From the NCBI RefSeq assembly GCF_026163685.1, contig NZ_JAOXSR010000001.1:496001-560000 (forward strand): 64,000 nucleotides of DNA, in the 5' to 3' direction. A program made the position numbers and the translations under genes. Of this stretch, positions 6,264 to 55,376 are shown piece after piece. The notes beneath the pieces were generated by a model. That model ran no database searches and was not told the DNA's origin. It was given only the letters and a program-made list of their open reading frames with translations. The DNA comes from Oerskovia flava. GTDB lineage: Bacteria; Actinomycetota; Actinomycetes; Actinomycetales; Cellulomonadaceae. How positions within the stretch are numbered: the first letter of the stretch is position 1; every line of letters begins with the position of its first letter.

Positions 6264-6357
6264 AGTCCCGACGTGCGCCGGTGCGCGCCGGGACCACAGC
6301 AGGGGGCCGGTACCCCGTGCGCATCGAGAACGGGTCCAGGGGGACGCCGCCCGGTCG

Positions 6358-6371
6358 TGTGATCGTTAACA
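6358..6371. promoter_or_regulatory. LacI-family operator 3 (GH51 promoter)
   Basis: TGTGATCGTTAACA matches the 14-bp consensus of the sites at 1082, 1111 and 13254 (TGTKAKCGNTMACA). It lies 51 bp before the GH51 start, where it could block transcription, so this gene probably has its own arabinose-controlled promoter. Confidence 0.65.
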
Positions 6372-6421
6372 TCAACGACGGTCGACGGATTCCCAGGTCT
6401 CTCAACGAGGAGAGGTACTTG

Positions 6422-10342: not shown

Positions 10343-10400
10343 CCCGGCGTGATCATGCCCGCCTGGCCGGGCACGACTGATCAGGCCTGACCGCGTGTGA

Positions 10401-10443
10401 CCCGTGGCCCGGGCGGCCCCTCCGGGGGCCTCCGGGCCACGGG
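10401..10443 (+). terminator. Terminator after GH51 gene
   Basis: Outer stem CCCGTGGCCCGG (10401-10412) with CCGGGCCACGGG (10432-10443), plus an inner GGCCCC/GGGGCC stem (10415-10420 and 10425-10430). This two-tier GC hairpin lies 59 bp after the stop. Confidence 0.7.
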
Positions 10444-10477
10444 CTCCGCGCGGATCTTCTCGGTCCGATTCGATATC

Positions 10478-10489
10478 GGTATCGCTAAC
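10478..10489. promoter_or_regulatory. Degenerate LacI-type operator upstream of GH43 gene
   Basis: GGTATCGCTAAC keeps the central CGCTAAC of operator 1 but has lost the outer TGTGA arm. It sits in the same relative place (before a secreted arabinanase gene), so weaker regulation by the same repressor is possible. Confidence 0.35.
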
Positions 10490-10642
10490 GATCTCGAACC
10501 AGAGGGGGGCTCTCCGAGGAAGCCGCCCCGAGAGGAGGTGAGAGCCCGCGGGAGGGCTACGCGCGATCACCCTGACCCGGCCCGGCACGACCGAGCGCCG
10601 GTGGCAGGGCGCAGACGATGGACAGAACACCAGGAGGAACTG

Positions 10643-13063
10643 ATGGAGAGTCAACGTGGACGACGACGTCGTCTTCGAGGGACCGTGGCCGCGGCAGCGG
10701 TCGCGACACTGCTGACGGCGTCGTTCGCGGCGCTGCCGTCGTACGCCGCGGACGAGGAGCTCGTCGTCAACGGCGGCTTCGAGGACGGGACGACGGGCTG
10801 GTTCGTCAACGACGGGAACGCGACGGACGCCGGTGTGCTCTCGACCACCGACGACGCGTTCTCCGGTGCGGCCGCCGCGCTCACCACCGAGCGGGCGACG
10901 ACCGGGTCGGGACCGATGCAGGACCTCAGCGGCCTGGTCCAGGCGGGGGAGGCCTACGAGCTCAGCGCCCGCATCAGGTACGACGCCGCGGACGCCCCCG
11001 CGACGAAGGAGTTCTTCGCCACGATGCACTACGGCGGGAGCAGCTACACGAACCTCGTGAGCGTCGTCGCGACGAAGGGGCAGTGGGCACTGATGGAGGG
11101 GACCTTCACGATCCCCGCGGCGCAGGACGTGACGACCGCGCGGCTGTTCTTCGAGACGCCGTGGACGGCCAACCCGTCGGCCGACCCCGGCACGCACCTC
11201 ATGGACTTCACCCTCGACGACGTGTCGGTGGTGGGCGCTCCGCCGCCGCCACCCGCGTCGCGGACGATCGAGGTCCTGGGCAAGGTCCCGGGGGAGCACA
11301 ACCCGCTCGTCTCGCACAAGTTCGGTGCGGACGGCTTCGGGTTCGTCGAGGACGGTCGGGTCTACATGTACCTGACCAACGACACGCAGGGGTACGCGCC
11401 GGACCCGGTCACCGGGATCTCGCCGCAGATCAACTACGGGGACATCAACCAGATCACCCTCATCTCCTCGGAGGACCTGGTGAACTGGACCGACCACGGT
11501 GAGATCCAGGTGGCAGGCCCTGACGGCGTGGCCCCCTTCACGAACAACTCGTGGGCTCCCGGCTTCGCCAAGAAGGTCGTCGACGGCGTGGAGAAGTACT
11601 TCCTCTACTACGCCAACGGCGGCGGCTCGAGCAACGTCCTCACGGGCGAGTCCCCGCTCGGGCCGTGGGCGAGCGAGCGGACGAGCACGCTCGTCAACGC
11701 GAGCACCCCGGGCGTCGAGGGTGTCGCCTGGCCCTTCGACCCGGCGCCGTTCGTCGACGACGACGGCACGGGCTACCTCTACTTCGGTGGCGGCCCGGCG
11801 TCGACGAGCATGCCCGCGGCGGAGCGCTTCAACAACCCGAAGAACATCCGCGCGATCGAGCTCGGCGACGACATGGTCTCCACGACGGGGTCGGCCGTCG
11901 TGGTGGACGCCCCGGTGGCGTTCGAGGCCGCGCACGTGTTCGAGCGGGAGGGCATCTACTACCTGTCCTACTCGTCGCACTTCGGCGGGAGCGACTTCGG
12001 TGGCAACCAGACGCCTCTGCCCGGGTACCCGGGTGGTGGGCAGATCGGCTACATGATGTCCGACGACCCCATGACGTGGCCGAAGGAGACCTACGCGGGC
12101 GTCCTGTTCCCCAACCAGTCCCAGTTCTTCGGGGCCGGGACCGGGGGCAACAACCACCAGTCCGTGTTCGAGCTCGACGGGAAGTTCTACTTCACCTACC
12201 ACGCGCCGACGCTCAATAAGCGGATCAACGGGAACACGACCCAGGGGTATCGCAGCCCGCACATCCAGGAGCTGACGTTCGACGAGGACGGCACCATCCA
12301 GCAGGTCGTCGGGGACTTCGCCGGCCCGGAGCAGGTCAGGGACCTCGACCCGTACCGGGTGATCGAGGCCGAGACCTTCGCGTGGCAGCAGGGTCTGGCC
12401 ACCGCGAAGGTCGAGGGTGGTTCCGCGCAGTTCGGGGACGGCGCCCCGAACCTGGTGGTCCGTGACGTCGACGACGGCGACTGGTCGGCGCTGTCGTCGG
12501 TGGACCTCGGGGCGGACGGCGCGGGGAGCGTCACCGCGCGCGTCAAGCCGCTCGTCGAGGGTGGCCGGATCGAGGTCCGGCTGGACGACCGCACCGCACC
12601 GGTGGTGGGGACGATCCCGCTCGACACCGCGGTCGGGGAGTGGGCGGAGATCACCGCCGAGCTGGACGGCGCGACCGGGGTGCGGGACGTGTACTTCACG
12701 TTCAGCGGCCCGGCCGGTCAGGACCTCGTCGAGGTCGACACCTGGCAGTTCGCACCGGCGGAGGCGGGTGCGTCCGTGGACCTGTCCGTCACGGCCGAGG
12801 CCCGCTGCGTGGCGGGCAAGGCGTACCTCGCGGTGCGTGCCACGAACGACGACGCCGCCGCGGTCGACGTCGTGCTGTCGACGCCGTACGGCAGCCGGGT
12901 CTTCACGGAGGTCGCGCCGGGCAAGGGCGCGTACCAGTCGTTCCCGGCGCGGACGGCGTCCGTCCCTGCGGGTGTGGCGTCGGTGACGGGTACGTCGACG
13001 CTCGACGGCGAGGAGGTGACCACGACGTTCGAGACCCCCTTCGAGGCAGCCGGCTGCAGCTGA
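10643..13063 (+). CDS. Secreted CBM4_9-GH43-CBM6 arabinofuranosidase/arabinanase
   Basis: Predicted extracellular hydrolase of arabinose-containing polysaccharide, 806 residues. The signal peptide runs to about residue 33 (SYAAD). A CBM4_9-type module opens with ELVVNGGFEDG (35-190). A five-bladed GH43 domain spans about 205-535. Candidate catalytic residues are Asp230 (base, in FGADGFGF), Asp366 (pKa modulator, in WPFDPAPF) and Glu428 (acid, in FEAAHVF). A CBM6-type module starts at RVIEAETFAW (about 571), and the shared terminal module occupies 711-806. The ATG at 10643 follows CAGGAGGAAC. GH43 covers arabinofuranosidases, arabinanases and xylosidases; arabinose activity is inferred from the locus. 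Confidence 0.88.
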   Translation: MESQRGRRRRLRGTVAAAAVATLLTASFAALPSYAADEELVVNGGFEDGTTGWFVNDGNATDAGVLSTTDDAFSGAAAALTTERATTGSGPMQDLSGLVQAGEAYELSARIRYDAADAPATKEFFATMHYGGSSYTNLVSVVATKGQWALMEGTFTIPAAQDVTTARLFFETPWTANPSADPGTHLMDFTLDDVSVVGAPPPPPASRTIEVLGKVPGEHNPLVSHKFGADGFGFVEDGRVYMYLTNDTQGYAPDPVTGISPQINYGDINQITLISSEDLVNWTDHGEIQVAGPDGVAPFTNNSWAPGFAKKVVDGVEKYFLYYANGGGSSNVLTGESPLGPWASERTSTLVNASTPGVEGVAWPFDPAPFVDDDGTGYLYFGGGPASTSMPAAERFNNPKNIRAIELGDDMVSTTGSAVVVDAPVAFEAAHVFEREGIYYLSYSSHFGGSDFGGNQTPLPGYPGGGQIGYMMSDDPMTWPKETYAGVLFPNQSQFFGAGTGGNNHQSVFELDGKFYFTYHAPTLNKRINGNTTQGYRSPHIQELTFDEDGTIQQVVGDFAGPEQVRDLDPYRVIEAETFAWQQGLATAKVEGGSAQFGDGAPNLVVRDVDDGDWSALSSVDLGADGAGSVTARVKPLVEGGRIEVRLDDRTAPVVGTIPLDTAVGEWAEITAELDGATGVRDVYFTFSGPAGQDLVEVDTWQFAPAEAGASVDLSVTAEARCVAGKAYLAVRATNDDAAAVDVVLSTPYGSRVFTEVAPGKGAYQSFPARTASVPAGVASVTGTSTLDGEEVTTTFETPFEAAGCS

Positions 13064-13100
13064 CCCGGAGCATCCCGCGCCCCACCGAAGTAGAACCACA

Positions 13101-13168
13101 GTGCGCGAGGTAGAACCGGGGTGCGCGAGGTAGAACCGGGGTACTCACCCCGGTTCTACCTCGCGCAC
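13101..13168. repeat. GTAGAACC tandem-repeat/hairpin element A
   Basis: Two identical 20-bp units (13101-13120, 13121-13140), preceded by a decayed third (13087-13100), run into a perfect inverted copy. Bases 13121-13142 pair with 13147-13168 (22 bp) around the loop ACTC. It sits 37 bp after the GH43 stop. A related element with GTAGTACC lies at 18255-18336. It may terminate transcription, but the tandem units are not explained by that. Confidence 0.85.
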
Positions 13169-13253
13169 GGGAGTTCTCCCTCGGCGGCCCAGGTCGACAT
13201 CGTTATCGACAATTGTTCGTTCTTGACCGGCTCTGTTCAAGCGCAAGGGCACA

Positions 13254-13267
13254 TGTTAGCGTTCACA
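13254..13267. promoter_or_regulatory. LacI-family operator 4 (double-GH43 promoter)
   Basis: TGTTAGCGTTCACA differs at one position from the reverse complement of operator 1 (TGTTAGCGCTCACA). It lies 68 bp before the start codon. A weaker similar sequence, GTTATCGACAAT, is at 13202-13213. Confidence 0.65.
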
Positions 13268-13334
13268 CGCGCCGGTCCAACGACGGACGGGCCGCCCGGC
13301 GAGGCTGCCGGGGCACGACGACGAGGAGTCACCG

Positions 13335-16300
13335 ATGACCTCACGCCACGAACCACCACCGACCCGCAGGCGGATGCCCCGCCGCGTGCTCGGCGGGCTG
13401 CTCGGCCTGACGCTCACCGCGCCGCTGCTGACCGCCCCCGCCACGGCCGCTCCCGCACCGACCCTCCAGCTCGCCGCCGCACCGTCGGACGGCCTGAGAC
13501 TGTGGCTGCCGCTCGACGAGACCGAGGGGACCGTCGCGCACGACGAGTCCGGCAACGGGCTCGACGCGACGCTCACGGGGGCCGGCGGAGGCTGGCGCGC
13601 GGGCCAAGGGCTCGAGTTCGGCGGGAGCAACCACGTCGAGCTGGTCGACGATCTCCTCGCGGACCTCGACGCCGTGACCGTCAGCGCCGACGTCTGGATC
13701 GACACGTCCCTGACCGGGAACTACTTCTTCTACAACCTCGGCAACGCCGCCGTCGGCACCCCGCAGTCCGGGACCGGCTACCTCTTCTCCACCGGGAACG
13801 CGAACTACCGCGCGACGATCTCCGACGTCGCGTGGGGCCGCGAGCAGAACACGGTCAAGGCACCCGCCGGCGCCCTCGCGCGCGGCGTGTGGAAGACCGT
13901 CACCTACACGCTCGCCGACGGCACCGCGCGCCTCTACGAGGACGGCGCGCAGGTCGGCGAGAACGCCGCGGTGACGCACACGCCCGGCGCGATCGGCGGG
14001 GGCAGCACGACCGCCAACTTCCTCGGGAAGTCCGCGTACGCCGCGGACGGCCTCTTCAAGGGCCGCATGAAGGACTTCCGCCTCTACGAGCGCGCCCTGA
14101 GCGCGCAGGAGGTCGCCGACGTCGCGGCCGACGCCGCGGCAGGCGCCGTCACCGCGGACGCCGCCGCGCTCGACCTCGGTGACACCAGCGCCGTCGTCGC
14201 CGACCTCGCGCTGCCTGCTCGGGGCGCCGGTGGCTCGGCGGTCGCGTGGGAGTCCTCCGACACGTCGGTCGTCGCTACGGACGGCCGGGTGACCCGCCCG
14301 GCGGAGAACCCCACGACCGTCACGCTCACCGCGACCGTCACCCTCCGGGGCGCGTCCGAGACCCGCACGTTCGACGTCACGGTCCTCCCGGGCGAGGCCG
14401 GGGGTGACGACCAGGTGACGGTCGACGCCGCAGCGGCGGCCCTCGAGGTGACGAACCTCGACGACGTCCGCGGACACCTCACGCTGCCCACCACCGGTCT
14501 CGACGGCACGAGCGTGACCTGGGCTGCGTCGTCGGGCACCATCACGCCCACGGGCGAGGTGACCCGGCCCGCGCACGGTGAAGAGGCCGAGACCGTGACC
14601 CTCACCGCGACCGTGACGCTGGGCGACGCGGTCGTCGAGCGGACGTTCGAGGCCCACGTGCCGCCCTTGCCGCAGGACGAGGAGCTCGAGGGCTACCTCT
14701 TCTCCTACTTCATCGGCGAGGGCACGGCCGACGGCGAGCAGGTCTACTTCGGGCTCAGCAAGGGCAACGACCCGCTGCGCTACATCGACCTCAACGACAA
14801 CCAGCCGGTGCTGACCTCCGAGCTGGGCGACGAGGGCCTGCGCGACCCGTTCATCATCCGCTCTCCCGAGGGCGACAAGTTCTACCAGATCGCGACCGAC
14901 CTCAAGGTGCACGGCTCGTGGGACTGGGACGGGTTCCAGCGCCGGGGGTCCAAGTCGATCATGGTCTGGGAGTCCACCGACCTCGTGAACTGGACGGACC
15001 AGCGGCTCGTGCAGGTCTCGCCCGAGAACGCGGGCAACACGTGGGCACCCGAGGCGTACTACGACGAGACGATCGGCGCGTACGTCGTGTTCTGGGCGTC
15101 CAAGCTCTACGCCGAGGACGACCCGAACCACACCGGCAACACCTACAACCGCATGATGTACTCCACGACGCGGGACTTCGTGACGTTCACGGACCCGCAG
15201 GTGTGGGTCGACCCGGGCTACTCGGTCATCGACTCCACGGTCATGCTGCACGACGGTGAGTACTACCGGTTCACGAAGGACGAGCGGAACAACACCTCGA
15301 GCACGCCCTGCTCGAAGTTCATCATCGGGGAGAAGTCGTCCGAGCTGCGCTCGACCGACTACGAGTTCATCACCGACTGCATCGGCAGGGCGAACTCGCT
15401 CGGCGCGGGGATCAACCAGGGCGAGGGCCCGACGATCTTCAAGTCGAACACCGAGGAGAAGTGGTACATGTTCATCGACGAGTTCGGTGGACGAGGCTAC
15501 GTGCCCTTCGAGACCACCGACCTCGACGCGGCCGAGTGGAAGATGTCCACCGGCTACGAGATGCCGTCGCGCCCGCGCCACGGCACGGTGCTCCCGGTGA
15601 CGCAGGCCGAGTACGACCGCCTGCTCCAGACGTACCAGCCCGACGCGTTCGTCGAGGCCGTGGACGACGTCGAGGTCACGGTCCAGGTCGGGTCCGCGCC
15701 CGTCCTCCCGTCGAGCGTGACCGCCCGTTTCGCGGACGGGTCCACGGGTCCGGCCGACGTCACGTGGGACGCCGTCGACGCGGCGTCGTTCGCGCAGGCC
15801 GGCGTGTTCGTCGTCGAGGGGTCGCTGGGCGGCGGTGTGAGCGTCCGCGCCCGCGCGGTCGTCACGGTGACCGACGACGTCGTCCCCGTCGAGGGCCTGA
15901 GCGTCACGCCCGCCTCGGCGCAGGTGGGTATCGGGGGGACCCGGCAGCTGGTCGCGACGGTCAGCCCGGCGAACGCCACGGCGCGCGCCATCACGTGGGC
16001 GTCGGAGGACCCCGACGTCGTCACGATCTCGGCCGACGGCCTCGTCACGGGCGTCGGCGAGGGCACCGCGATGGTCACCGCGACCACCGCCGACGGCGAG
16101 CACACCGTGTACGTGGCGGTCGAGGTCACGGCCGACGTGCCCGGGCTGGTCGTGCGCTACGCGCTCGACGAGACGAGCGGCACGTCCGCGGCGAACTCCG
16201 CCCCGGGCAGCAGCTTCGGCGCGGCCGCGCTCGTCAACGGCGCCGCGTTCACCGGCGACGAGGGGGTGGCGCTCGACGGCACGAACGACTACGTCGACCT

Positions 16301-18242
16301 GCCGGACCACGTGCTCGCCGGGCTGACCGACATCTCGGTGAGCCTCGACGTGAAGATCGCCGCGGCGCAGGCCACGCCGTACTTCATCTACGGGATGGGC
16401 AACACGAGCGGGACCACCGGGGACGGGTACCTGTTCACGACCGGCAACGCGTACCGGACCTCGATCGCCACGGGCAACTGGTCGACCGAGCAGACCGTCA
16501 CGAAGGGGTCGAACCTCGACCGCGGGGTCTGGAAGCACCTGACCTACACGCTCGAGGGCACGACCGCCACGCTCTACGAGGACGGCGTCCAGGTCGGGCG
16601 TCAGACGGGTGTGACGATCAACCCGCAGGACATCGGTGGCGGGTCGACTCTCGCCAACTACATCGGCCGCTCGGTGTACACCGGCGACCGGTACCTGCAG
16701 GGCAACGTCCGCGACTTCCGGATCTACGACCGCGCGCTCACGGCCGACGAGGTCGCTGCCGTCGGGGCGGACCACACCGCGGTGACGGGCGCCGAGCTCG
16801 ACACGCTGAAGGTCCCGGCGGTCGTGCACGCGGCGAGCTCGACGGTCACCCTCCCGGTCGAGCCCGGGACGGACCTCACGGCGCTCGCGCCGGAGCTCAC
16901 GGTCTCGGCGCTGGCGACGGTGACCCCGGCGAACGGGTCGGTGCAGGACTTCACCGACCCGGTCGAGTACACCGTGGCGGGCCCGGGCGGAGCGTCGCGC
17001 ACGTGGTCCGTCCAGGCGAAGATCATGAACAGTCCTTCGTTGCCGGGCCTGTACGCCGACCCGAACATCGTCCAGTTCGGCGACACGTTCTACATCTACG
17101 CGACGTCGGACGGGTACGCCGGCTGGGGTGGCAAGGAGTTCTACGTCTGGAAGTCCAGCGACCTCGTCGACTGGGAGCGCTCGGAGGAGCCGTTCCTCAC
17201 GCTCGACGGTGCGAACGGGAACGTCCCGTGGGCGACCGGCAACGCGTGGGCCCCGACGATCGCGGAGCGGGAGGGGAAGTACTACTTCTACTTCTCGGGC
17301 CACAACCCGACGTACAACCGCAAGACCATCGGTGTCGCGGTCGCGGACAGCCCCGAGGGCCCGTTCACGGCCGAGCCGACGGCGATGATCACCAACGGAG
17401 AGTCGATCGCGTCGGGTCAGGCCATCGACCCCGCCACGTTCCACGACCCCGAGACGGGCAAGTACTGGCTCCTGTGGGGCAACGGCGGGCCGACGAACGG
17501 CCCGGTCATGGCCGAGCTGAACGACGACATGACGTCGATCAAGCAGGACACCCTGCGCCGGATCCCCGGCCTGACGGGCTTCCGCGAGGGCCTGTTCGTC
17601 AACCTGCGTGGCGGGCTCTACCACCTCACGTACTCGATCGACGACACCGGCTCGGAGAACTATCGGGTCGGGTACGCCACGGCGACCAGCATGGAGGGGC
17701 CGTGGACCTATCGCGGCGTCATCCTCGAGAAGGACGCGACGCAGGGTCTCCTCGGGACCGGGCACAGCTCGATCCTCAACGTCAAGGGTACGGACGACTG
17801 GTACATCGCGTACCACCGCTTCGCGATGCCCGGTGGCAACGGCACGAACCGCGAGACGACGATCGATCGCCTCACGTTCGGCGAGGACGGGCTCATGCTC
17901 CCCGTCACCCCGACCCTCGAGGGGGTGCAGCCGCTCGATGCGGCGCCGCAGCCCGAGGTGGAGATGACGGTCGAGGTGGCACCCCGCTGCGTCGCAGGCC
18001 GCGTCTACCTCGCGGTGAGCGCGACCAACGCCGGGGACGTGCCGGCGACGATCACGCTCGCGACGCCGTTCGGTTCCCGGACGGTGGCGGACGTCGCGCC
18101 GGGCAAGGTCGCCTACCAGGCGTTCACGACGCGCTCGGCGAGTCTGACGGCCGGCACGGCGACGGTCGCCGCGACGGCCCTCCTCGACGGCGAGGAGGTC
18201 ACGACCGTTCGGGACGTCGAGTACGACGCCTCGACCTGCTGA
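13335..18242 (+). CDS. Giant secreted enzyme with two GH43-type domains
   Basis: Predicted extracellular arabinan-degrading enzyme of 1635 residues. Order of parts: signal peptide (to about 45), LamG-like domain (51-265), two atrophied Ig-like repeats (275-440), first GH43-type domain (449-775, with GLRDPF and NTWAPEA), Big_4-like (780-850), Big_2-like (850-935, VEGLSVTPAS), second LamG (936-1145), a DUF5018-like segment (1149-1230), second GH43 domain (1231-1535, with GLYADPN and GNAWAPT), and the shared C-terminal module (1543-1635). ATG 13335 follows ACGAGGAG. The N-terminal half is a paralogue of the next gene. The second LamG looks closer to the LamG of the next gene than to the first LamG here, pointing to domain shuffling. 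Whether the first GH43-type domain is active is uncertain because its N-terminal general-base Asp is not obvious. Confidence 0.88.
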   Translation: MTSRHEPPPTRRRMPRRVLGGLLGLTLTAPLLTAPATAAPAPTLQLAAAPSDGLRLWLPLDETEGTVAHDESGNGLDATLTGAGGGWRAGQGLEFGGSNHVELVDDLLADLDAVTVSADVWIDTSLTGNYFFYNLGNAAVGTPQSGTGYLFSTGNANYRATISDVAWGREQNTVKAPAGALARGVWKTVTYTLADGTARLYEDGAQVGENAAVTHTPGAIGGGSTTANFLGKSAYAADGLFKGRMKDFRLYERALSAQEVADVAADAAAGAVTADAAALDLGDTSAVVADLALPARGAGGSAVAWESSDTSVVATDGRVTRPAENPTTVTLTATVTLRGASETRTFDVTVLPGEAGGDDQVTVDAAAAALEVTNLDDVRGHLTLPTTGLDGTSVTWAASSGTITPTGEVTRPAHGEEAETVTLTATVTLGDAVVERTFEAHVPPLPQDEELEGYLFSYFIGEGTADGEQVYFGLSKGNDPLRYIDLNDNQPVLTSELGDEGLRDPFIIRSPEGDKFYQIATDLKVHGSWDWDGFQRRGSKSIMVWESTDLVNWTDQRLVQVSPENAGNTWAPEAYYDETIGAYVVFWASKLYAEDDPNHTGNTYNRMMYSTTRDFVTFTDPQVWVDPGYSVIDSTVMLHDGEYYRFTKDERNNTSSTPCSKFIIGEKSSELRSTDYEFITDCIGRANSLGAGINQGEGPTIFKSNTEEKWYMFIDEFGGRGYVPFETTDLDAAEWKMSTGYEMPSRPRHGTVLPVTQAEYDRLLQTYQPDAFVEAVDDVEVTVQVGSAPVLPSSVTARFADGSTGPADVTWDAVDAASFAQAGVFVVEGSLGGGVSVRARAVVTVTDDVVPVEGLSVTPASAQVGIGGTRQLVATVSPANATARAITWASEDPDVVTISADGLVTGVGEGTAMVTATTADGEHTVYVAVEVTADVPGLVVRYALDETSGTSAANSAPGSSFGAAALVNGAAFTGDEGVALDGTNDYVDLPDHVLAGLTDISVSLDVKIAAAQATPYFIYGMGNTSGTTGDGYLFTTGNAYRTSIATGNWSTEQTVTKGSNLDRGVWKHLTYTLEGTTATLYEDGVQVGRQTGVTINPQDIGGGSTLANYIGRSVYTGDRYLQGNVRDFRIYDRALTADEVAAVGADHTAVTGAELDTLKVPAVVHAASSTVTLPVEPGTDLTALAPELTVSALATVTPANGSVQDFTDPVEYTVAGPGGASRTWSVQAKIMNSPSLPGLYADPNIVQFGDTFYIYATSDGYAGWGGKEFYVWKSSDLVDWERSEEPFLTLDGANGNVPWATGNAWAPTIAEREGKYYFYFSGHNPTYNRKTIGVAVADSPEGPFTAEPTAMITNGESIASGQAIDPATFHDPETGKYWLLWGNGGPTNGPVMAELNDDMTSIKQDTLRRIPGLTGFREGLFVNLRGGLYHLTYSIDDTGSENYRVGYATATSMEGPWTYRGVILEKDATQGLLGTGHSSILNVKGTDDWYIAYHRFAMPGGNGTNRETTIDRLTFGEDGLMLPVTPTLEGVQPLDAAPQPEVEMTVEVAPRCVAGRVYLAVSATNAGDVPATITLATPFGSRTVADVAPGKVAYQAFTTRSASLTAGTATVAATALLDGEEVTTVRDVEYDASTC

Positions 18243-18254
18243 CCACGCCGAAGC

Positions 18255-18336
18255 GCGAGGTAGTACCGCAGTCCGCGAGCTAGTACCGCAGTCCGCGAGG
18301 TAGTACCGGGGATCGTTCCCCCGGTACTACCTCGCG
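18255..18336. repeat. GTAGTACC tandem-repeat/hairpin element B
   Basis: Three 20-bp units start at 18255, 18275 and 18295 (GCGAGSTAGTACCG core) and run into an inverted copy. Bases 18294-18311 pair perfectly with 18319-18336 (18 bp) around a 7-nt loop. The period, order and distance after a CAZyme stop codon match element A at 13101, but the core has GTAGTACC instead of GTAGAACC, with the change mirrored in both arms. Confidence 0.85.
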
Positions 18337-18394
18337 CACCTGGGTTCTCTCTCGGCAGGGGAAGTGCCGGAATCTCGACGAGGAGAAGGACGAC

Positions 18395-20992
18395 ATGAGA
18401 GCACGAACCACGCAGGACCGACGGCGGGGCAGCGCAGCCCTCGCCGGCACACTGGCGGGCGCCCTGCTGGCGTCCGTACTGATCGCCGCCGCAGCGACAC
18501 CCGTGGCGGCCGATGTCGGCGGGGCCACGGACGACGGTCTGGTCGCCTGGTACCCGCTGGACGCGACCGCCACGACCGGGGGGACGACCGCGAACCTGGC
18601 CGAGGGCTCGACCTTCGGTCCGGCCACGGTCCACGGCGGTCTGCCCGGCGCGGACGGGCTCACCCTCGACGGGGTGGACGACTACGTCGACCTCCCGGAC
18701 AGCTTGCTCGCCGGCCTCACGGACGTGACCGTCAGTCTCGACGTGAACATCGCCACGACCCAGGGCACGCCCTACTTCATCTGGGGGCTCGGCAACTCCA
18801 GCGGGAGCAACGGCAACGGCTACCTGTTCGCGACCGGCAACCCCTACCGGGCCGCCATCGCGTCGGGCAACTGGTCGACCGAGCAGATCGTCACAAAGGG
18901 CGCGGGCAACAACCTCCCGCGCGGCACGTGGACCTCGATCACCTACACGCTCGACGGCACCACGGCCCGCATCTTCGAGGACGGGGTCCAGGTCGGGCAG
19001 AACACGAACGTCACGACCGACCCGGGCGCCATCGGCGGTGGGTCCACGTTGGCGAACTACATCGGCCGTTCCCTGTACTCCGCGGACCGGTACCTCGCGG
19101 GCCAGGTCCGCGACTTCCGGCTCTACGACCGGGCGCTCGAGCAGGCGGAGGTCGCCGAGCTGGCCGGGCCCGTCGCAGACGCGGCGGTCGAGGCCGACGC
19201 CGCTGCGCTCGACCTCGGCGACACGAGCGCCGTGACCCGTGACCTGGTCCTTCCGCAGCGCGGCGACCAGGGTTCCGTCATCATCTGGGAGTCCTCGGAC
19301 GCGTCAGTGGTCGCGCCCGACGGTACGGTCACCCGACCCGAGCCGGGGGAGCCCGACGCCGAGGTGACGCTCAGCGCGACGCTCACCCGCGGTGTGGCGA
19401 CCCGGACGGTCGACGTCCCGGTCACGGTCCTCGCCTCCTTCGACGCCGAGCAGTCGGTGGCCTGGGACGCCTCGCACGTCGTCGTCCCGAACCTTGACGA
19501 CGTCCGCGGCAACGTCACGCTGCCGACCTCCGGGGAGTACGGCTCGATGCTCACGTGGGGCACCTCCCACCCCGAGGTCGTGACGACCACGGGAGAGGTG
19601 GACCGGCCGGCGCACGGTGCGGACGCCGTCGTCGTGACGCTCACCGTGACGGCTACCAAGGGCGGCGCGACCGCGTCGCACGAGTATGTCGCCACGGTGG
19701 CGCCGCTGCCGGCCGAGGCGGACTACGAGGGCTACTTCTTCCCGTACTTCGAGGGCGAGAGCACACCCGACGGCGAGTCGGTCTTCTTCGCGGCGAGCGA
19801 CGGGAACGACCCGCTGCAGTGGCTCGAGCTCAACGAGAGCGAGCCCGTGCTCAGCTCCGAGTTGGGGGAGCGGGGCCTGCGGGACCCGTTCCTCATCCGC
19901 TCGCCCGAGGGTGACCGGTTCTTCATGATCGCGACCGACCTGAAGATCTACGGCGGCAACAGCTTCGCCAATGCGCAGGAGCGCGGCAGCCGCTCGCTGA
20001 TGATCTGGGAGTCCGACGATCTCGTGACCTGGTCCGACCAGCGTCAGGTCCAGGTCTCGAGCGCGTTCGCGGGCAACACGTGGGCGCCCGAGGCGCACTG
20101 GGACGCCGCCCGCGGGGAGTACATCGTGTACTGGGCGTCGGCGTTGTACCCGACGACGGAGACCGCGGGACGCAACTACCGCAACAGCTACCAGCGGATG
20201 ATGTACTCGACCACGCGCGACTTCGTGACCTTCACCGAGCCGCAGATCTGGATCGACGAGCAGCGGGGCGCGGGCCTCGGCATGATCGACTCGTCGATCA
20301 TCGAGCACGAGGGGACCTACTACCGGTTCACCAAGGACGAGAGCTACATGGGCATGCGGCTCGAGACGTCCACGGACCTGCGCGATCTCGACTGGGACTT
20401 CGTGGCGGAGCGCATCGGGTTCGGGCAGCCGAACGGGTACGGCGGCACCTTCACGGCCGCCGAGGGGCCCACGGGCTTCAAGTCGAACACCGAGGAGAAG
20501 TGGTACCTCTTCATGGACCAGCCCAGCTATCACGGCGGGCAGGGTTACGTGCCGTTCGAGTCGACGGACCTGTCGACCGGCGAGTGGACCCTCGCGGAGG
20601 GTGCCGCGCTGCCCACCAGCCCGCGTCACGGGACGGTCATGCCGGTCACCGCCGCCGAGCACGCACGTCTGCTCGACGCGTTCGGTCCGGAGCAGCCCGC
20701 TGAGGAGCTCGACCTCGCGGTCGACGTCGCACCGCGCTGCCTGGCGGGCAGGGCGTACGTGGCGGTCTCGGTGACCAACGCGGAGGCTGTGCCGGTCGAC
20801 GTCGAGGTCGTCACTCCCTACGGGACACGCTCCTTCGCGGCCGTCGCACCGGGCAAGGCCGCCTACCAGTCGTTCAACGCCCGTGCGACCTCCGTCCCGG
20901 CCGGGTCGGTCATGGTCACCGGGACCGCGACCCTCGACGGGGCGACCATCACGTCGGACCAGGAGGCGCCGCTGCTCGCGACGACCTGCTGA
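18395..20992 (+). CDS. Secreted LamG-Ig-GH43-type protein
   Basis: Predicted extracellular glycoside hydrolase of 865 residues. A signal peptide (to about 38, TPVAAD) precedes a LamG-like domain (47-245), two atrophied Ig-like repeats (255-430), a GH43-type domain (441-765, with GLRDPFLIRS, NTWAPEA and an HGTVMPVT tail) and the shared terminal module (771-865). It is a shorter paralogue of the N-terminal half of the upstream gene. ATG 18395 follows AGGAGAAGGA. No LacI-type site lies in front of it, so it probably depends on read-through past element B, or on an unrecognised promoter. The substrate is inferred from the locus; the activity could be arabinanase or arabinofuranosidase. Confidence 0.85.
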   Translation: MRARTTQDRRRGSAALAGTLAGALLASVLIAAAATPVAADVGGATDDGLVAWYPLDATATTGGTTANLAEGSTFGPATVHGGLPGADGLTLDGVDDYVDLPDSLLAGLTDVTVSLDVNIATTQGTPYFIWGLGNSSGSNGNGYLFATGNPYRAAIASGNWSTEQIVTKGAGNNLPRGTWTSITYTLDGTTARIFEDGVQVGQNTNVTTDPGAIGGGSTLANYIGRSLYSADRYLAGQVRDFRLYDRALEQAEVAELAGPVADAAVEADAAALDLGDTSAVTRDLVLPQRGDQGSVIIWESSDASVVAPDGTVTRPEPGEPDAEVTLSATLTRGVATRTVDVPVTVLASFDAEQSVAWDASHVVVPNLDDVRGNVTLPTSGEYGSMLTWGTSHPEVVTTTGEVDRPAHGADAVVVTLTVTATKGGATASHEYVATVAPLPAEADYEGYFFPYFEGESTPDGESVFFAASDGNDPLQWLELNESEPVLSSELGERGLRDPFLIRSPEGDRFFMIATDLKIYGGNSFANAQERGSRSLMIWESDDLVTWSDQRQVQVSSAFAGNTWAPEAHWDAARGEYIVYWASALYPTTETAGRNYRNSYQRMMYSTTRDFVTFTEPQIWIDEQRGAGLGMIDSSIIEHEGTYYRFTKDESYMGMRLETSTDLRDLDWDFVAERIGFGQPNGYGGTFTAAEGPTGFKSNTEEKWYLFMDQPSYHGGQGYVPFESTDLSTGEWTLAEGAALPTSPRHGTVMPVTAAEHARLLDAFGPEQPAEELDLAVDVAPRCLAGRAYVAVSVTNAEAVPVDVEVVTPYGTRSFAAVAPGKAAYQSFNARATSVPAGSVMVTGTATLDGATITSDQEAPLLATTC

Positions 20993-21255: not shown

Positions 21256-21996
21256 GTGACGACCCGCCCTGCCCTCGATCTCGCGCGCCCGAAGCGCATC
21301 GCTCGCTGTGCCCGGGCGCTGCGCGCCGGAGCCCTCGCCCTGGCGGTGCTGGCCCTGAGCGTGGTGGGTGCCGGAGTCGTCCCGCCGGCGGTAGCCGCCG
21401 CCGGGCCCGAGCGCGGTATCGACATCACCGTCGACATCGAGGAGCGCGAGGGCCCCCAGCGCCCGGGGGTCGAGGTCGTCGCCGACCGGCCGGTCCCGGG
21501 GTCGACGATCCTTGTCCGGGCCTGGGGACTCCTACCGAACAGCGACGTCCAGGTTCACCTGCACTCCGACCGTCTGCTCCTGGGCGTGGGACGCACCGAC
21601 GCCGAGGGGCGACTCGAGATCGAGCTCGTGCTCCCGGCGTCGATCGCCCCCGGTATGCACCATGTGAGCGTCACCGTGCTCGACGGAGGTGCCGTCGTGG
21701 AGTCGGCGCCGTTCGAGGTCTTCGCCGGCGCACCCGTGGACCCGGGCGGTCCAGACCCCGTCGACCCGGACCTGCCGGGCGCTGACGGCGGTCCGGGGAG
21801 CCCGGGCGTGCCCGGGGCCCCCGAGGCACCCGGCGCCCCGGAGGCGCCCGCGAACCCGGGTGCATCGGGCCCGGCTCGGCCGGGTGCGCTCCCGGTGACC
21901 GGTGCGGCGCTCGGCGGGCTGCTCGCGCTCGCCGCGGGCCTGGTCGTCGGCGGCGTCTACCTGTCGCGGCGCCGGTACGGACCTGACGGCACCTGA
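21256..21996 (+). CDS. LPVTG cell-wall-anchored protein of unknown function
   Basis: Exported protein predicted to be linked to the cell wall by sortase. The 246 residues comprise a signal peptide (to about 48, AVAAAG), one beta-rich domain (about 50-155) recalling a secreted Ig-like adhesion or sugar-binding fold, a Pro/Gly-rich spacer with repeated PGxPGAPEAPG-like units (about 158-210), then LPVTG (212-216), a hydrophobic segment and a basic tail (SRRR). The GTG start at 21256 was chosen for the signal peptide immediately after it, with AAGGAG upstream. It is monocistronic between a terminator and the convergent ktrA gene. The ligand is not recognisable. Confidence 0.8.
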   Translation: MTTRPALDLARPKRIARCARALRAGALALAVLALSVVGAGVVPPAVAAAGPERGIDITVDIEEREGPQRPGVEVVADRPVPGSTILVRAWGLLPNSDVQVHLHSDRLLLGVGRTDAEGRLEIELVLPASIAPGMHHVSVTVLDGGAVVESAPFEVFAGAPVDPGGPDPVDPDLPGADGGPGSPGVPGAPEAPGAPEAPANPGASGPARPGALPVTGAALGGLLALAAGLVVGGVYLSRRRYGPDGT

Positions 21997-51326: not shown

Positions 51327-52280
51327 ATGTCCAGAGGTCGCCACAGTGCAGCACCGGCTGCGCCCGCCCGCACGCGGCGGCTCCCGGCGCTCGCGCTGAT
51401 CGCCGTCCTCGGCGCCGCGGTCGTCGGCTCGGGCCCCCAGGTGGCGGTCGGCACCGAGGACACCGGCGTCCCGTTCGCCGGGTCGACGTCGGAGCGCGAC
51501 GCGAAGGCCGCCAGCCGTTCCGGCGACCGGGCGACGCTGGGCGCCGGGCCGAGGACCGACACGACGGACCCCACGCCCGCTCCGACGTTCGAGGTCGCCG
51601 ACGAGCCGACCCCGGAGGTCGTCCCCGCACCCGATCCGGAACCTGAGCCGGAGCCCGAGCCGGAACCCGAGACGGTGCCCGACGTGACCGGGCAGATGTG
51701 GACCACGGACGCCGTCAACGTCAGGACCGAGCCGTCGGCGGACGCCGAGAGGGTCACGACCGTTCCGTCCGCCACCGTCGTCGACGTTACCGGCGCCACT
51801 GACGACGGGTGGAGCCAGGTCGTCTGGGACGGGGCCGCCGCCTGGATCAGCTCGGCCTTCCTGTCCGAGACGGAGCCGGAGCCCGAGCCCGAGGAGCAGG
51901 CGGCGAGCACGTCCGGTCCGTCGGGCGCCGCCTGCTCGGTCAACCCGGAGATCGAGTCCGGGCTGCAGGCCAACGCGATCGCGACCTATCGCGCGGTGTG
52001 CGCGGCATTCCCCCAGGTCACCTCGTACGGCGGGCTGCGCCCGGGCGACGGCGGCGACCACGGCACGGGCCGCGCCGTCGACGTCATGATCACCGGCGAG
52101 ACAGGGTGGCAGATCGCCCGGTACGTGCAGGCCAACGCGGGCTCGCTGGGTGTCACCTACATCATCTACGAGCAGAAGATCTGGATGGCGGGCGACTCCG
52201 CGAGCGCGTGGGCACCGATGGCGGACCGCGGCGGCGCGACCGCGAACCACTTCGACCACGTGCACATCAGCACGTCGTAG
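51327..52280 (+). CDS. Secreted SH3-domain protein with ARB_07466/VldE-like C-terminal domain
   Basis: Exported, probably cell-wall-associated protein of 317 residues. The signal peptide or anchor spans about 18-42. A Pro/Glu repeat linker (PEPEPEPEPE near 105) leads to a bacterial SH3 domain (about 123-182, VNVRTEPSADAERV), a second EPEPEPE linker, and a C-terminal domain (about 200-317) with GLRPGDGGDHGTGRAVDVM and ANHFDHVHIS. The latter resemble the His/Asp zinc motifs of the uncharacterised ARB_07466-like family related to D,D-peptidases. It probably binds or trims peptidoglycan. ATG 51327 follows CCCCGGAG loosely. Confidence 0.8.
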   Translation: MSRGRHSAAPAAPARTRRLPALALIAVLGAAVVGSGPQVAVGTEDTGVPFAGSTSERDAKAASRSGDRATLGAGPRTDTTDPTPAPTFEVADEPTPEVVPAPDPEPEPEPEPEPETVPDVTGQMWTTDAVNVRTEPSADAERVTTVPSATVVDVTGATDDGWSQVVWDGAAAWISSAFLSETEPEPEPEEQAASTSGPSGAACSVNPEIESGLQANAIATYRAVCAAFPQVTSYGGLRPGDGGDHGTGRAVDVMITGETGWQIARYVQANAGSLGVTYIIYEQKIWMAGDSASAWAPMADRGGATANHFDHVHISTS

Positions 52281-52387: not shown

Positions 52388-52409
52388 TCGTGCACGCCGG
52401 TGTGCACGA
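52388..52409. promoter_or_regulatory. Inverted repeat upstream of the SipW-type operon
   Basis: TCGTGCAC (52388-52395) and GTGCACGA (52402-52409) form a perfect 8+8 inverted repeat. A third GGTGCAC lies shortly downstream. A GGAACC (52365-52370) with a GTC 17 bp on resembles an ECF-sigma promoter, but this is weak. Confidence 0.4.
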
Positions 52410-52475
52410 TCCTTGGTGCACTCCGACGGGGTGCCACGAGGCGCACGCAACGATGCGAACGCAGGGGGCTCGACG

Positions 52476-53018
52476 ATGGACAAGTTGACAAAGGGTGCAG
52501 TAGCGGTCGGCGCGGGGGTGGTCCTCCTGCTCGGTGGGGCGGGGACGTACGCCCTGTGGTCCGACTCCCAGAGCGTCGCCGAGAGCGGCGAGATCGCCTC
52601 CGGTGACCTCGACCTCGAGCTCGGCACGGAGGGCACCTGGACGCTGAACGGCGCCGCCGTCGCGGACGTGACGGCGGTGCGGATCGTCCCGGGCGACGTG
52701 CTCGCTCTCACCCAGCCGATCACGGTGACGGCGATCGGCGACACGCTGCAGTCCACGCTCTCGGTCTCCTCGGCGGGGCTGACGGGTGACGCGGACCTGC
52801 TGGCGGCGCTCGACCTCGCCTTCACGTTCGACACCCCACCCGCGTGGGCGACCGACAACGGGGACGGCACGTTCGACGTCGCCCCCTCGGACGCGGCGTA
52901 CGCGCCCGTCGACGCCGGGGTGACGCTGACCTTCGACGAGGCCACGCCCGACCAGGTGGCGACCGACGCCGTCGTGGACCTCTCGAGCGTCACGTTCAGC
53001 CTCGAGCAGTACCTCTGA
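52476..53018 (+). CDS. Alternate-type (SipW-class) signal peptide protein 1
   Basis: 180-residue exported protein. The N-terminus carries the actinobacterial alternate-type signal peptide motif (KGAVAVGAGVVLLLGGAGTYALWSDS), which is processed by SipW-like peptidases and is related to the Bacillus TasA/TapA leader class. The mature part (about 35-180) is a Thr/Asp/Val-rich beta domain with no cysteines. It heads a five-gene operon that includes such a peptidase. ATG 52476 was chosen on the signal motif. The function is unknown; a fibre or surface-layer subunit is one possibility. Confidence 0.8.
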   Translation: MDKLTKGAVAVGAGVVLLLGGAGTYALWSDSQSVAESGEIASGDLDLELGTEGTWTLNGAAVADVTAVRIVPGDVLALTQPITVTAIGDTLQSTLSVSSAGLTGDADLLAALDLAFTFDTPPAWATDNGDGTFDVAPSDAAYAPVDAGVTLTFDEATPDQVATDAVVDLSSVTFSLEQYL

Positions 53019-53031
53019 GAGGTCGCACTCC

Positions 53032-53556
53032 ATGACGGCCACCGATCACGATCGACGGCCGGGCGGACGGTGGGCGGGCGGGGCGGCGCGGTGGGTGATC
53101 GTGCCGCTCCTCTCGCTCGGCGCGCTCGGCGTGATGTCGGCGGCGTCGGCGCTGTGGGGTGCGCAGGCTCCCGTGAGCTCGGCCCAGGTGACCTCGGGGA
53201 CCTTCGGGCTCAGCGCGACCTGGTCGAGCGCACCGAACCTCACGGGGATCCTGCCGGGCCAGTCGCGCGACGGCGTCCTGACCCTCCAGCACAGCGGCGA
53301 CGGCACGTGGCGCTACCGCGTGGCGTCCAGCCACACGGGGACGCTGCGTCCGACGCTCACCGAGACCTTCTACGCCGGCGCGACGTGCACCGGCACACCC
53401 GTGGCGTCGGGTGCGCTGAGCGCGGCCACGCTCCCGCGGGGCGGGAGTGCCCAGGTGTGCGTGCGGTACACGCTGCCTGCGAACGCGCCGTCCGGCCTGC
53501 AGGGCGCCACCTCCCAGATCACCCTCACCGCGTCGGCCGAGAACAGGCCCTCATGA
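53032..53556 (+). CDS. SipW-class exported protein 2
   Basis: 174-residue protein with a basic leader, a hydrophobic segment (VIVPLLSLGALGVMSAASALWG) and a sequence SAQVTSGTFGLSATW that follows the pattern of SipW-dependent exported proteins. The mature domain is beta-rich with two cysteines (about 125-150) that could pair. Length and leader resemble the previous protein, but the overall sequence is divergent. It lies 13 bp after the first gene and overlaps the next by 4 bp. Confidence 0.72.
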   Translation: MTATDHDRRPGGRWAGGAARWVIVPLLSLGALGVMSAASALWGAQAPVSSAQVTSGTFGLSATWSSAPNLTGILPGQSRDGVLTLQHSGDGTWRYRVASSHTGTLRPTLTETFYAGATCTGTPVASGALSAATLPRGGSAQVCVRYTLPANAPSGLQGATSQITLTASAENRPS

Positions 53557-54035
53557 CGCGCACCCGACGTCGGCTGCTGGCCTGGCCACTCGTTCTCACC
53601 CTCGCGCTGGTGCTGACCGGTGGTGCGGGCGCGGCGGCCTGGTGGACCGCGAGCCAGACGGTCCAGGCGACCGCGACGGCCGCCGTGATCGCCCCGGCGA
53701 CGAACATCCGCTGCACGACGACGGGTGGCACCCTCACGCGCACCGCGACGGTGGCGTGGAACGCCGCCGCGCAGGTCCCCGCGTCCTACCGCGTGACGAT
53801 CCGCTCCGGCACGACGGTGACGACCACGACGGTGCCCGGGACGCAGACGCAGCTCGTCATCTCCCAGTCGTTGCTGGGCGGCCTCCTCGGGTCGATCCTC
53901 GACCTGCTGCTCGGGGGAGCGGTGCTCAACGTCAGCGTGCAGGCGGTGCACTCGAGCGGCTGGGTGTCGGTGCCCACCGGGACCGTGGGCGTGCGCAACG
54001 CGCCCCTCCTGCAGGCGGGGATCGTCTGTGCGTGA
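53553..54035 (+). CDS. SipW-class exported protein 3
   Basis: 160-residue protein with a leader WPLVLTLALVLTGGAGAAAW followed by WTASQTVQATATAAVI, again like the alternate signal class. The mature part resembles a fibronectin/Ig-like beta domain (VAWNAAAQVPASYRVTIRSG), with Cys in RCTTTG and a terminal Cys (IVCA) able to form a disulphide. Its 3' end overlaps the peptidase gene by 8 bp. Function unknown. Confidence 0.72.
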   Translation: MTRTRRRLLAWPLVLTLALVLTGGAGAAAWWTASQTVQATATAAVIAPATNIRCTTTGGTLTRTATVAWNAAAQVPASYRVTIRSGTTVTTTTVPGTQTQLVISQSLLGGLLGSILDLLLGGAVLNVSVQAVHSSGWVSVPTGTVGVRNAPLLQAGIVCA

Positions 54036-54639
54036 CGACCCTGCGCCCCGGCGCCGTCTGCTCGGCCGTGTGCTCGGCGCGCTGCTCCTGGCCGCGGCGC
54101 TCGCGCTCGCGCTGCTGCTCGTCGTCGTCCCCCTGTTCCTCGGGGCCACGCCGTACGCGGTGCTCACCGGCAGCATGCGCCCCGACATGCCCCCGGGCAG
54201 CCTCGTCGTCGTCCGCCCGGCCGAGCCCGAGGAGATCCGTGTCGGGGACGCCATCACCTACCAGATCGCCTCCGGGCGCCCCGAGGTGGTGACGCACCGC
54301 GTCGTCGGCGTCGGCGTCACGAGCGAGGGCAGGACGTTCACCGCGCAGGGCGACGCGAACGCCCTGCCGGACCCCGATCCCGTGGTCCCCGGGCAGGTGC
54401 GCGGCGTCGTGGTCTACGCCGTCCCCTGGGCGGGCTACGTCAGCTCGGCGATCGGGGCCGAGGAGCGCCGCACCGCGCTCTACCTCGTCGCGGGCGGGGT
54501 GGTCCTCTACGGCCTCTGGCAGGTCGCCGGCGGGGTGCGTGAGCGCCGTCGGGCACGACGTCGCCCGGCCCGGCATGCCGCGACCCCACCGTCTGCGCGT
54601 GCGGAGTCCGAGGCGCCCGCACCGGACCGGGTGCGGTGA
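54028..54639 (+). CDS. SipW-type (archaeal/ER-like) signal peptidase I
   Basis: Membrane peptidase expected to process the three preceding proteins. The 203 residues have an N-terminal membrane segment (about 11-38), then the S26B motifs TGSMRPDMPPGS (Ser49), VTHRVVGVG (His90, replacing the Lys of ordinary bacterial signal peptidases) and AQGDANALPDPD (Asp109), and a C-terminal membrane segment with a basic tail. The Ser/His/Asp set defines the SipW class. The GTG start at 54028 overlaps the upstream gene by 8 bp. Confidence 0.88.
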   Translation: MRDDPAPRRRLLGRVLGALLLAAALALALLLVVVPLFLGATPYAVLTGSMRPDMPPGSLVVVRPAEPEEIRVGDAITYQIASGRPEVVTHRVVGVGVTSEGRTFTAQGDANALPDPDPVVPGQVRGVVVYAVPWAGYVSSAIGAEERRTALYLVAGGVVLYGLWQVAGGVRERRRARRRPARHAATPPSARAESEAPAPDRVR

Positions 54640-55376
54640 GCCCCGTGCCCGTGTCCTCTCGCCGTCCGCGCACACCGGTGCGGCGCCGCCGCGGAGCCCG
54701 AGCACTTCTCGCGGCGCTCCTGCTCCCGCTCGCCCTCCTCGCCGCTGCGCCGGCACACGCCGTGCCCGACGTCGTGCCTCACGCCCTGCCCGACGGGCAG
54801 TCCGGCGGGCTCCAGCTGAGCGTCGACGGCGAGACGTGGGGCGACCGGCTCCCGGCGGCTCTCTTCGGTCCGTCGGTCCGTATCGTCCCCGGCGAGACGG
54901 TCGCCGCGGACCTCTGGGTCCGCAACACCTCCCGCGAGCACGCCCGGCTCGAGCTCGAGGTCTCGACCGGCGCGGAGCCCGGGACCGGGCTCGGCGGCTG
55001 GATCCAGGTGGCGATCGACGGTGACCCCGCGGTGGCGAGCAGCACGTGGCGAGGTCCGGTCCTCAGCCCGGGGCAGTCGAGGCGGGTGGAGATCCGAGTG
55101 CACCTGCCGGCCGAGGCGCCGAACGCGACACGAGCGGACCGCGCCACCGTGGTCGACACCGTGCGGCTGGTGAGCACCGGCTCTCCGACATCGCCGTCGC
55201 CTTCCGGGCCGCCCGAGCCCGGACACCCGGGCGCGCAGGACGACGGGCGGGCGGACGGCGGTGCGGGGCGGGGCCTCGCGACGACCGGAGCGGACCTCAC
55301 CGCGCTGGGAGCCCTTGCGCTGCTGCTGGCGTGCGCAGGCGCCGGCGCGCTCCGCGCCCGCCGACGAGCGGGCTGA
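54636..55376 (+). CDS. LATTG wall-anchored protein of the SipW operon
   Basis: 246-residue exported protein with a conventional signal peptide (LLPLALLAAAPAHAVP, cleavage near 42), a beta-rich extracellular domain (about 50-180, VWVRNTSREHARLE-like Ig/DUF11 pattern), a Pro/Gly linker, then LATTG (214-218), a membrane segment and a basic tail (RARRRAG). LAXTG is the motif preferred by class E sortases of high-GC actinobacteria. It is translationally coupled to the peptidase (GTGA), so it may anchor the three small proteins to the wall. No sortase gene is in the window. Confidence 0.78.
   Translation: MSPVPVSSRRPRTPVRRRRGARALLAALLLPLALLAAAPAHAVPDVVPHALPDGQSGGLQLSVDGETWGDRLPAALFGPSVRIVPGETVAADLWVRNTSREHARLELEVSTGAEPGTGLGGWIQVAIDGDPAVASSTWRGPVLSPGQSRRVEIRVHLPAEAPNATRADRATVVDTVRLVSTGSPTSPSPSGPPEPGHPGAQDDGRADGGAGRGLATTGADLTALGALALLLACAGAGALRARRRAG

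Follow-up and report, generated by a model that had tools for sequence, protein, structure and literature searches.

TasA of Bacillus subtilis and BsaA of Clostridium perfringens are secreted proteins that form filaments, and the signal peptidase SipW is needed for their export or for biofilm formation (PMC7395162, PMC10151520, PMC9674648). The BsaA polymers, which make up the pellicle matrix, are mainly extracellular and do not depend on SrtB, the sortase encoded nearby (PMC7395162). A donor-strand fibre reported to be related to TasA is also known in archaea, the bundling pilin of Pyrobaculum (PMC9674648). Among Gram-positive bacteria, donor-strand fibres are known from TasA, and how they are held on the wall is poorly understood.

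A five-gene locus of Oerskovia flava is compared here with these systems. It lies in the window, by which we mean the whole stretch of 64,000 nucleotides that was analysed. We propose that it is a self-contained SipW-type module for the export and assembly of a TasA/BsaA-like extracellular fibre with a sortase-anchored homologous subunit, and we put the probability of this reading at roughly 0.55.

Gene organization and the signal peptidase

The five genes, designated A to E, are all on the + strand between 52476 and 55376: gene A at 52476..53018 (180 amino acids), gene B at 53032..53556 (174 amino acids), gene C at 53553..54035 (160 amino acids), gene D at 54028..54639 (203 amino acids) and gene E at 54636..55376 (246 amino acids). 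Genes A and B are separated by a gap of 13 bp, and the three following junctions are overlaps of 4, 8 and 4 bp, respectively. An earlier note, made from the sequence alone, had described this arrangement of five open reading frames, and every value was found exact on re-reading of the window. The same series of overlaps is present in two Cellulosimicrobium loci, for which the gene caller took a later start of gene B, and in one further locus (L080). The start of gene A was placed at 52476, because the alignment with the TIGR04089 model begins at its first residue there; the stretch 52388-55376 marked in the earlier note therefore holds the operon genes from 52476 onward, its first part (52388-52475) being upstream DNA.

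No match was obtained at the operon in searches for promoters, terminators and Rfam families. Just upstream of gene A, the palindrome GTGCAC occurs three times within 32 bp (window 52390-52421), forming two spaced pairs, where 0.09 would be expected in the window. These palindromes are a possible operator; they are not kept in the aligned upstream regions of Cellulosimicrobium. A gene for a secreted protein with a bacterial SH3 domain (window 51327-52280) is located between a ubiE-like gene and gene A, and in Cellulosimicrobium gene A directly follows the ubiE-like gene, without the SH3-domain gene in between.

Protein D is predicted to be a Ser/His signal peptidase of the ER/archaeal (S26B) type. 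It matched TIGR02228 (ER/archaeal-type signal peptidase) with 80.4 bits against a cut-off of 51.85, and Ser49, His90, Asp109 and Asp115 are invariant among 125 relatives, in agreement with the Ser/His/Asp peptidase claimed at the outset. With the Bacillus SipW equivalog NF046067 the score was 70.5 bits, below the cut-off of 190, placing D outside that equivalog. The only other S26 peptidase match in the genome carries the Ser/Lys pattern (SASMQ ... IKRVVG) of the housekeeping type, indicating that D is a second, specialised enzyme.

Exported proteins, the wall-sorted protein and the domain common to A, B and E

Protein A belongs to the SipW-cognate exported proteins (TIGR04089), with a score of 136.4 bits (cut-off 60) over positions 1-179 of the 179 positions. 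It also matched the SipW-leader model TIGR04088 (27 bits, cut-off 19), and its residues W28 and Q178 are invariant among 61 relatives. Alternate-type leaders had been claimed for all three small proteins: for A the curated models bear this out, while the leaders of window B and C were unrecognised and draw their support from relatives. Neither B nor C of the window matched TIGR04088, and with a leader profile for which relatives of A and B had served as the training set, B reached 0.1 bits and C -0.4 bits, as against 49.2 bits for A. Among the relatives, TIGR04088 matched 12 of 37 for B and 5 of 23 for C, and TIGR04089 matched 14 of the 37 for B. The trained profile, the training set of which contained part of the B set, gave at least 8 bits for 39% of B relatives, 18% of C relatives and 1% of other genes. 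It had replaced a loose regular expression for SipW leaders, which had also been matched by 28% of the other genes that encode a hydrophobic segment at the N-terminus. In the window proteins themselves, an aromatic residue stands just after the hydrophobic segment of both B (SALWG) and C (AAWWT).

Protein C is an exported protein and possibly FN3-like, its match to FN3 being weak and below the cut-off. Two cysteines (C54 and C159) and W31 are invariant in the alignment of its family, and by profile comparison it was unrelated to A, B and E.

Protein E carries a leader of the ordinary Sec type, which was unrecognised by the trained leader profile, and ends with LATTG, a hydrophobic stretch and RARRRAG. 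Against the anchor models, E itself gave no match above a curated cut-off. Two sortase genes are present in the genome, one of class E (234.8 bits, cut-off 160) and a second (L073) to which no class was assigned. Class E sortases favour LAxTG. With the motif, the hydrophobic stretch, the positive tail and a class E sortase gene all present, the claim of a sortase-anchored LATTG protein holds. Having a Sec leader and LATTG, E would be attached to the wall by the class E sortase. Elsewhere in the window, another 246-residue protein (21256-21996) has a leader, a C-terminal hydrophobic stretch and an RRR tail; its gene follows a series of genes for large secreted proteins (6281-20992) that opens with an arabinofuranosidase-like one, and searches of Pfam and NCBIfam gave no match for it.

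The mature domains were compared with hhalign, using disjoint sequence sets from which leaders and sorting signals had been removed. The values obtained were 98.3% (E 1.5e-14) for A and B, 97.5% (E 4.9e-12) for B and E, and 95.5% (E 1.6e-8) for A and E. This comparison shows homology among mature A, mature B and the wall-anchored E, which have one common predicted beta domain; B is an exported relative of A with the same predicted domain. E is accordingly more than the wall-anchored partner described in the earlier note, being a homologue of the exported subunits.

By profile, and through its relatives, this predicted domain is linked to the TasA/BsaA/camelysin group. A profile of mature B matched proteins in four other loci at 32-52 bits, and these proteins exceed the Pfam camelysin/TasA cut-off. 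Relatives of B directly match BsaA (TIGR04090), TasA (NF046066) and PF12389; the last was matched at E 0.01 or better by 11 of 37 B relatives and 10 of 61 A relatives, some of the PF12389, TasA and BsaA signal in the relatives coming from the leader. Protein A of the window scored 16.4 bits with PF12389, below the gathering cut-off of 22.5, and is therefore a relative, not a curated member, of the TasA/camelysin family; B and E of the window gave no match to PF12389. The comparison with SipW and TasA made from the sequence alone was thus right, and is strengthened by the reach of the A, B and E domain to this group. A search of PDB sequences with the profiles of A and E gave no TasA match, and the best matches were uninformative (retinol-binding protein entries for A, the C-terminal sorting region of Spa2 for E).

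The structure model of A has a mean pLDDT of 87; values are about 97 for the greater part of the domain, and the N-terminal segment is loose. Foldseek placed FimG (E 0.0096) at the head of its matches, together with the rod of type 1 pili and, at E 0.018 and probability 0.99, the TasA fibre 8aur. None of the matches passed E 0.001; the fold comparisons of A also brought up adhesins (SdrG, ClfA) and shaft pilins, SpaD for one. Alignment of A with 8aur by VIA-align gave Z 5.6 and an rmsd of 4.1 over 137 residues, model 27-180 lying on chain 28-234. If the ends of this alignment are ungapped, W28 would fall on TasA F29 and Q178 on Q232, a correspondence read from the range ends only. These two TasA residues are conserved and are among those forming the donor-strand binding cavity (PMC10151520). 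With the archaeal bundling pilin 7ueg, the A model gave Z 4.9. For the model of E (mean pLDDT 76), the closest Foldseek matches were PapG and CfaB pilin domains, with 7ueg (probability 0.99) and TasA also listed; MSP-type domains, glycosidase modules and generic Ig-like folds are similar to it as well. A Z value of about 8 or lower can mean a common arrangement, and nearly all values here are below 8; the fold matches therefore support, and do not prove, a donor-strand fibre.

Conservation, relocation and gene fusions

D has a match with E no higher than 0.001 in 102 of 150 sampled genomes of the family to which this genome belongs, and the best of these matches have 41-62% identity. Among 98 distinct loci with D near A, gene B is present in 78, E in 57 and C in 39, and all five genes are found in 31. 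A protein with a sorting signal is encoded at most four genes away in 65 of these 98 loci, as compared with 25 of 1,147 flanking genes. The remaining third lack such a protein and 41 of the 98 lack E, some of these absences possibly being gene-calling errors; the anchor is therefore not essential everywhere. In a phylum-wide sample, TIGR04089 was above its cut-off in 2 of 296 genomes, this genome included, indicating that the family is not spread throughout the phylum.

Among the loci retrieved, Cellulosimicrobium and its kin have the five genes together in the order of the window; Promicromonospora, Antribacter and others have them as A-D-E-B-C. The former arrangement adjoins a geranylgeranyl-reductase-like gene and nuo genes, and the latter pdxT- and yebC-like genes. 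The earlier note had set conserved synteny as a test, to be failed if the five genes were not conserved together; they are found together in several genera and fused in several combinations, so that this ground for refutation is excluded. The module seems to be old and to have changed its genomic place, between the yebC side and the nuo side. Chance would hardly account for a module whose parts stay together while their order and their place in the genome change. The module is near yebC, and near pdxT too where this was read, in 11 loci spanning both Micrococcales and Propionibacteriales. In Microbacteriaceae a downstream gene of about 850 codons encodes what we take, from reading it, to be a glucan phosphorylase-like protein and a mere neighbour.

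Fusions join the parts in three combinations. D and E form one protein in seven Microbacterium loci and in three other loci, and B- and C-type domains are fused in three loci. A D-like peptidase with a C-terminal extension is encoded in 10 loci, and the C-family profile detects this extension in most of the loci carrying it, in Nocardioides and others. The downstream D-like genes of seven of these loci consist of a peptidase and a C-type domain. In several peptidase-C fusions, a hydrophobic segment and then a SipW-like motif lie between the two halves, for example TWATWNDNVSVNGTTFSSG in locus L143. Such a protein resembles a peptidase with its substrate attached, and the fusions suggest that C is a substrate of the peptidase. 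Since D is fused with E, D-like peptidases with C, and B with C, the parts can be argued to act together.

Two contigs with unexpected titles, L109 (NZ_JADHDY010000011.1, titled Sporosarcina) and L095 (JABBOD010000036.1, titled Acidobacteria), carry an actinobacteria-like module. Relatives of L109, sought as a Bacillota source of TasA, were actinobacteria-like proteins instead, and proteins from genomes in the family of the L109 genome also look actinobacterial. One title or both could be mistaken, or the contigs could be foreign.

Proposed function and comparison with described systems

In the fibre module that we propose, D would act apart from the housekeeping Ser/Lys enzyme and cut the leader off A and, probably, off B and C too. 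Removal of the leader would free an N-terminal strand beginning with the conserved aromatic residue, and by analogy with TasA (PMC9674648) this strand could complete the beta-sandwich of the next subunit by donor-strand exchange. Gene A probably encodes the main fibre subunit; B would be a minor subunit related to it, and C would play an accessory part. E, which the class E sortase would attach to the wall, is probably the anchor of the fibre there and may serve as its base or acceptor. Polymerisation, the order of the subunits and the role of C are likewise proposed. A more specific version, which we put forward tentatively and at somewhat less than even odds, is an actinobacterial donor-strand surface fibre with a covalent root in the wall. 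Duplication of a TasA-family domain would have given rise both to the exported subunits and to a base anchored by sortase, and the peptidase of some relatives would cleave itself to release its own substrate.

The evidence on export, homology and wall sorting would fit equally well a secretion and surface-display module without fibres, in which D processes small beta-domain adhesins or binding proteins, soluble or wall-bound, and E is their wall-anchored relative; the adhesins SdrG and ClfA among the fold matches point the same way. We consider this unlikely, though the most credible of the alternatives, because the nearest characterised relatives, TasA and BsaA, form filaments (PMC9674648, PMC7395162) and donor-strand pilins are among the top fold matches of both A and E. 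A fibre could also be secreted into the medium as in C. perfringens, with E as a receptor or regulator instead of a covalent base. The mainly extracellular, SrtB-independent polymers of BsaA (PMC7395162) and the 41 D-and-A loci without E agree with such a fibre, but the homology of E to the subunits and its fusion to D in several Microbacterium loci make it improbable.

For a classical sortase-polymerised pilus, one could cite the presence of a LATTG protein and the fold similarity of A to shaft pilins such as SpaD. However, A, B and C are without a sorting signal, no sortase gene stands beside the operon among the genes read, and the sortase that could be classified is of class E, not of the polymerising class C. 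The locus thus falls outside the class C pilus systems, and we regard a classical pilus as very improbable.

If the wall-anchored fibre module is real, the question of how such fibres are held on the wall would be answered directly by a TasA-like domain that bears a sorting signal and is encoded in a single operon with its peptidase and with two exported relatives. The known range of this fibre type would also grow to include actinobacteria, among them Cellulosimicrobium, Microbacterium, Promicromonospora and Nocardioides. Fusions of peptidase and substrate offer a natural test of which proteins are cleaved by SipW-type peptidases.

The earlier note had claimed that no actinobacterial counterpart is characterised, and no paper on an actinobacterial module was found in the literature searched, which took in a minority of the subscription papers. 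In the same literature, no homologous sortase-anchored subunit was found described for bsa, tapA-sipW-tasA or TasA-CalY-CapP. The bundling pilin of Pyrobaculum (PDB 7ueg) resembles A and E in fold but is archaeal. We know of no peptidoglycan-anchored subunit for it.

The locus resembles tapA-sipW-tasA of B. subtilis (PMC10151520, PMC9674648) in its dedicated signal peptidase, in the SipW-type leader of A and in a TasA-like beta domain recognised by profile and fold. It differs in that no TapA-like gene was recognised here, three proteins are exported, a wall-anchored homologue (E) is present, and D and A are under the NF046067 and PF12389 cut-offs, respectively. The TasA-CalY-CapP system of B. 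cereus likewise combines two related fibre subunits with an accessory protein, which localises to the cell wall; unlike the present locus, that system is described as sortase-independent, and localisation to the wall there depends on a disordered C-domain, not a sorting signal (PMC13082335). The parts of the locus are of known kinds, and the combination of TasA relatives with a wall-fixed subunit is undescribed in the literature searched. The operon sipW-bsaABCRSD of C. perfringens also unites a SipW-type peptidase with several small secreted proteins (PMC7395162), and the BsaA model TIGR04090 matches relatives of B. In contrast to the present locus, it includes the two-component system bsaRS, BsaA is without LPXTG and SrtB is dispensable (PMC7395162), whereas here it is a homologous subunit, E, that bears the sorting signal.
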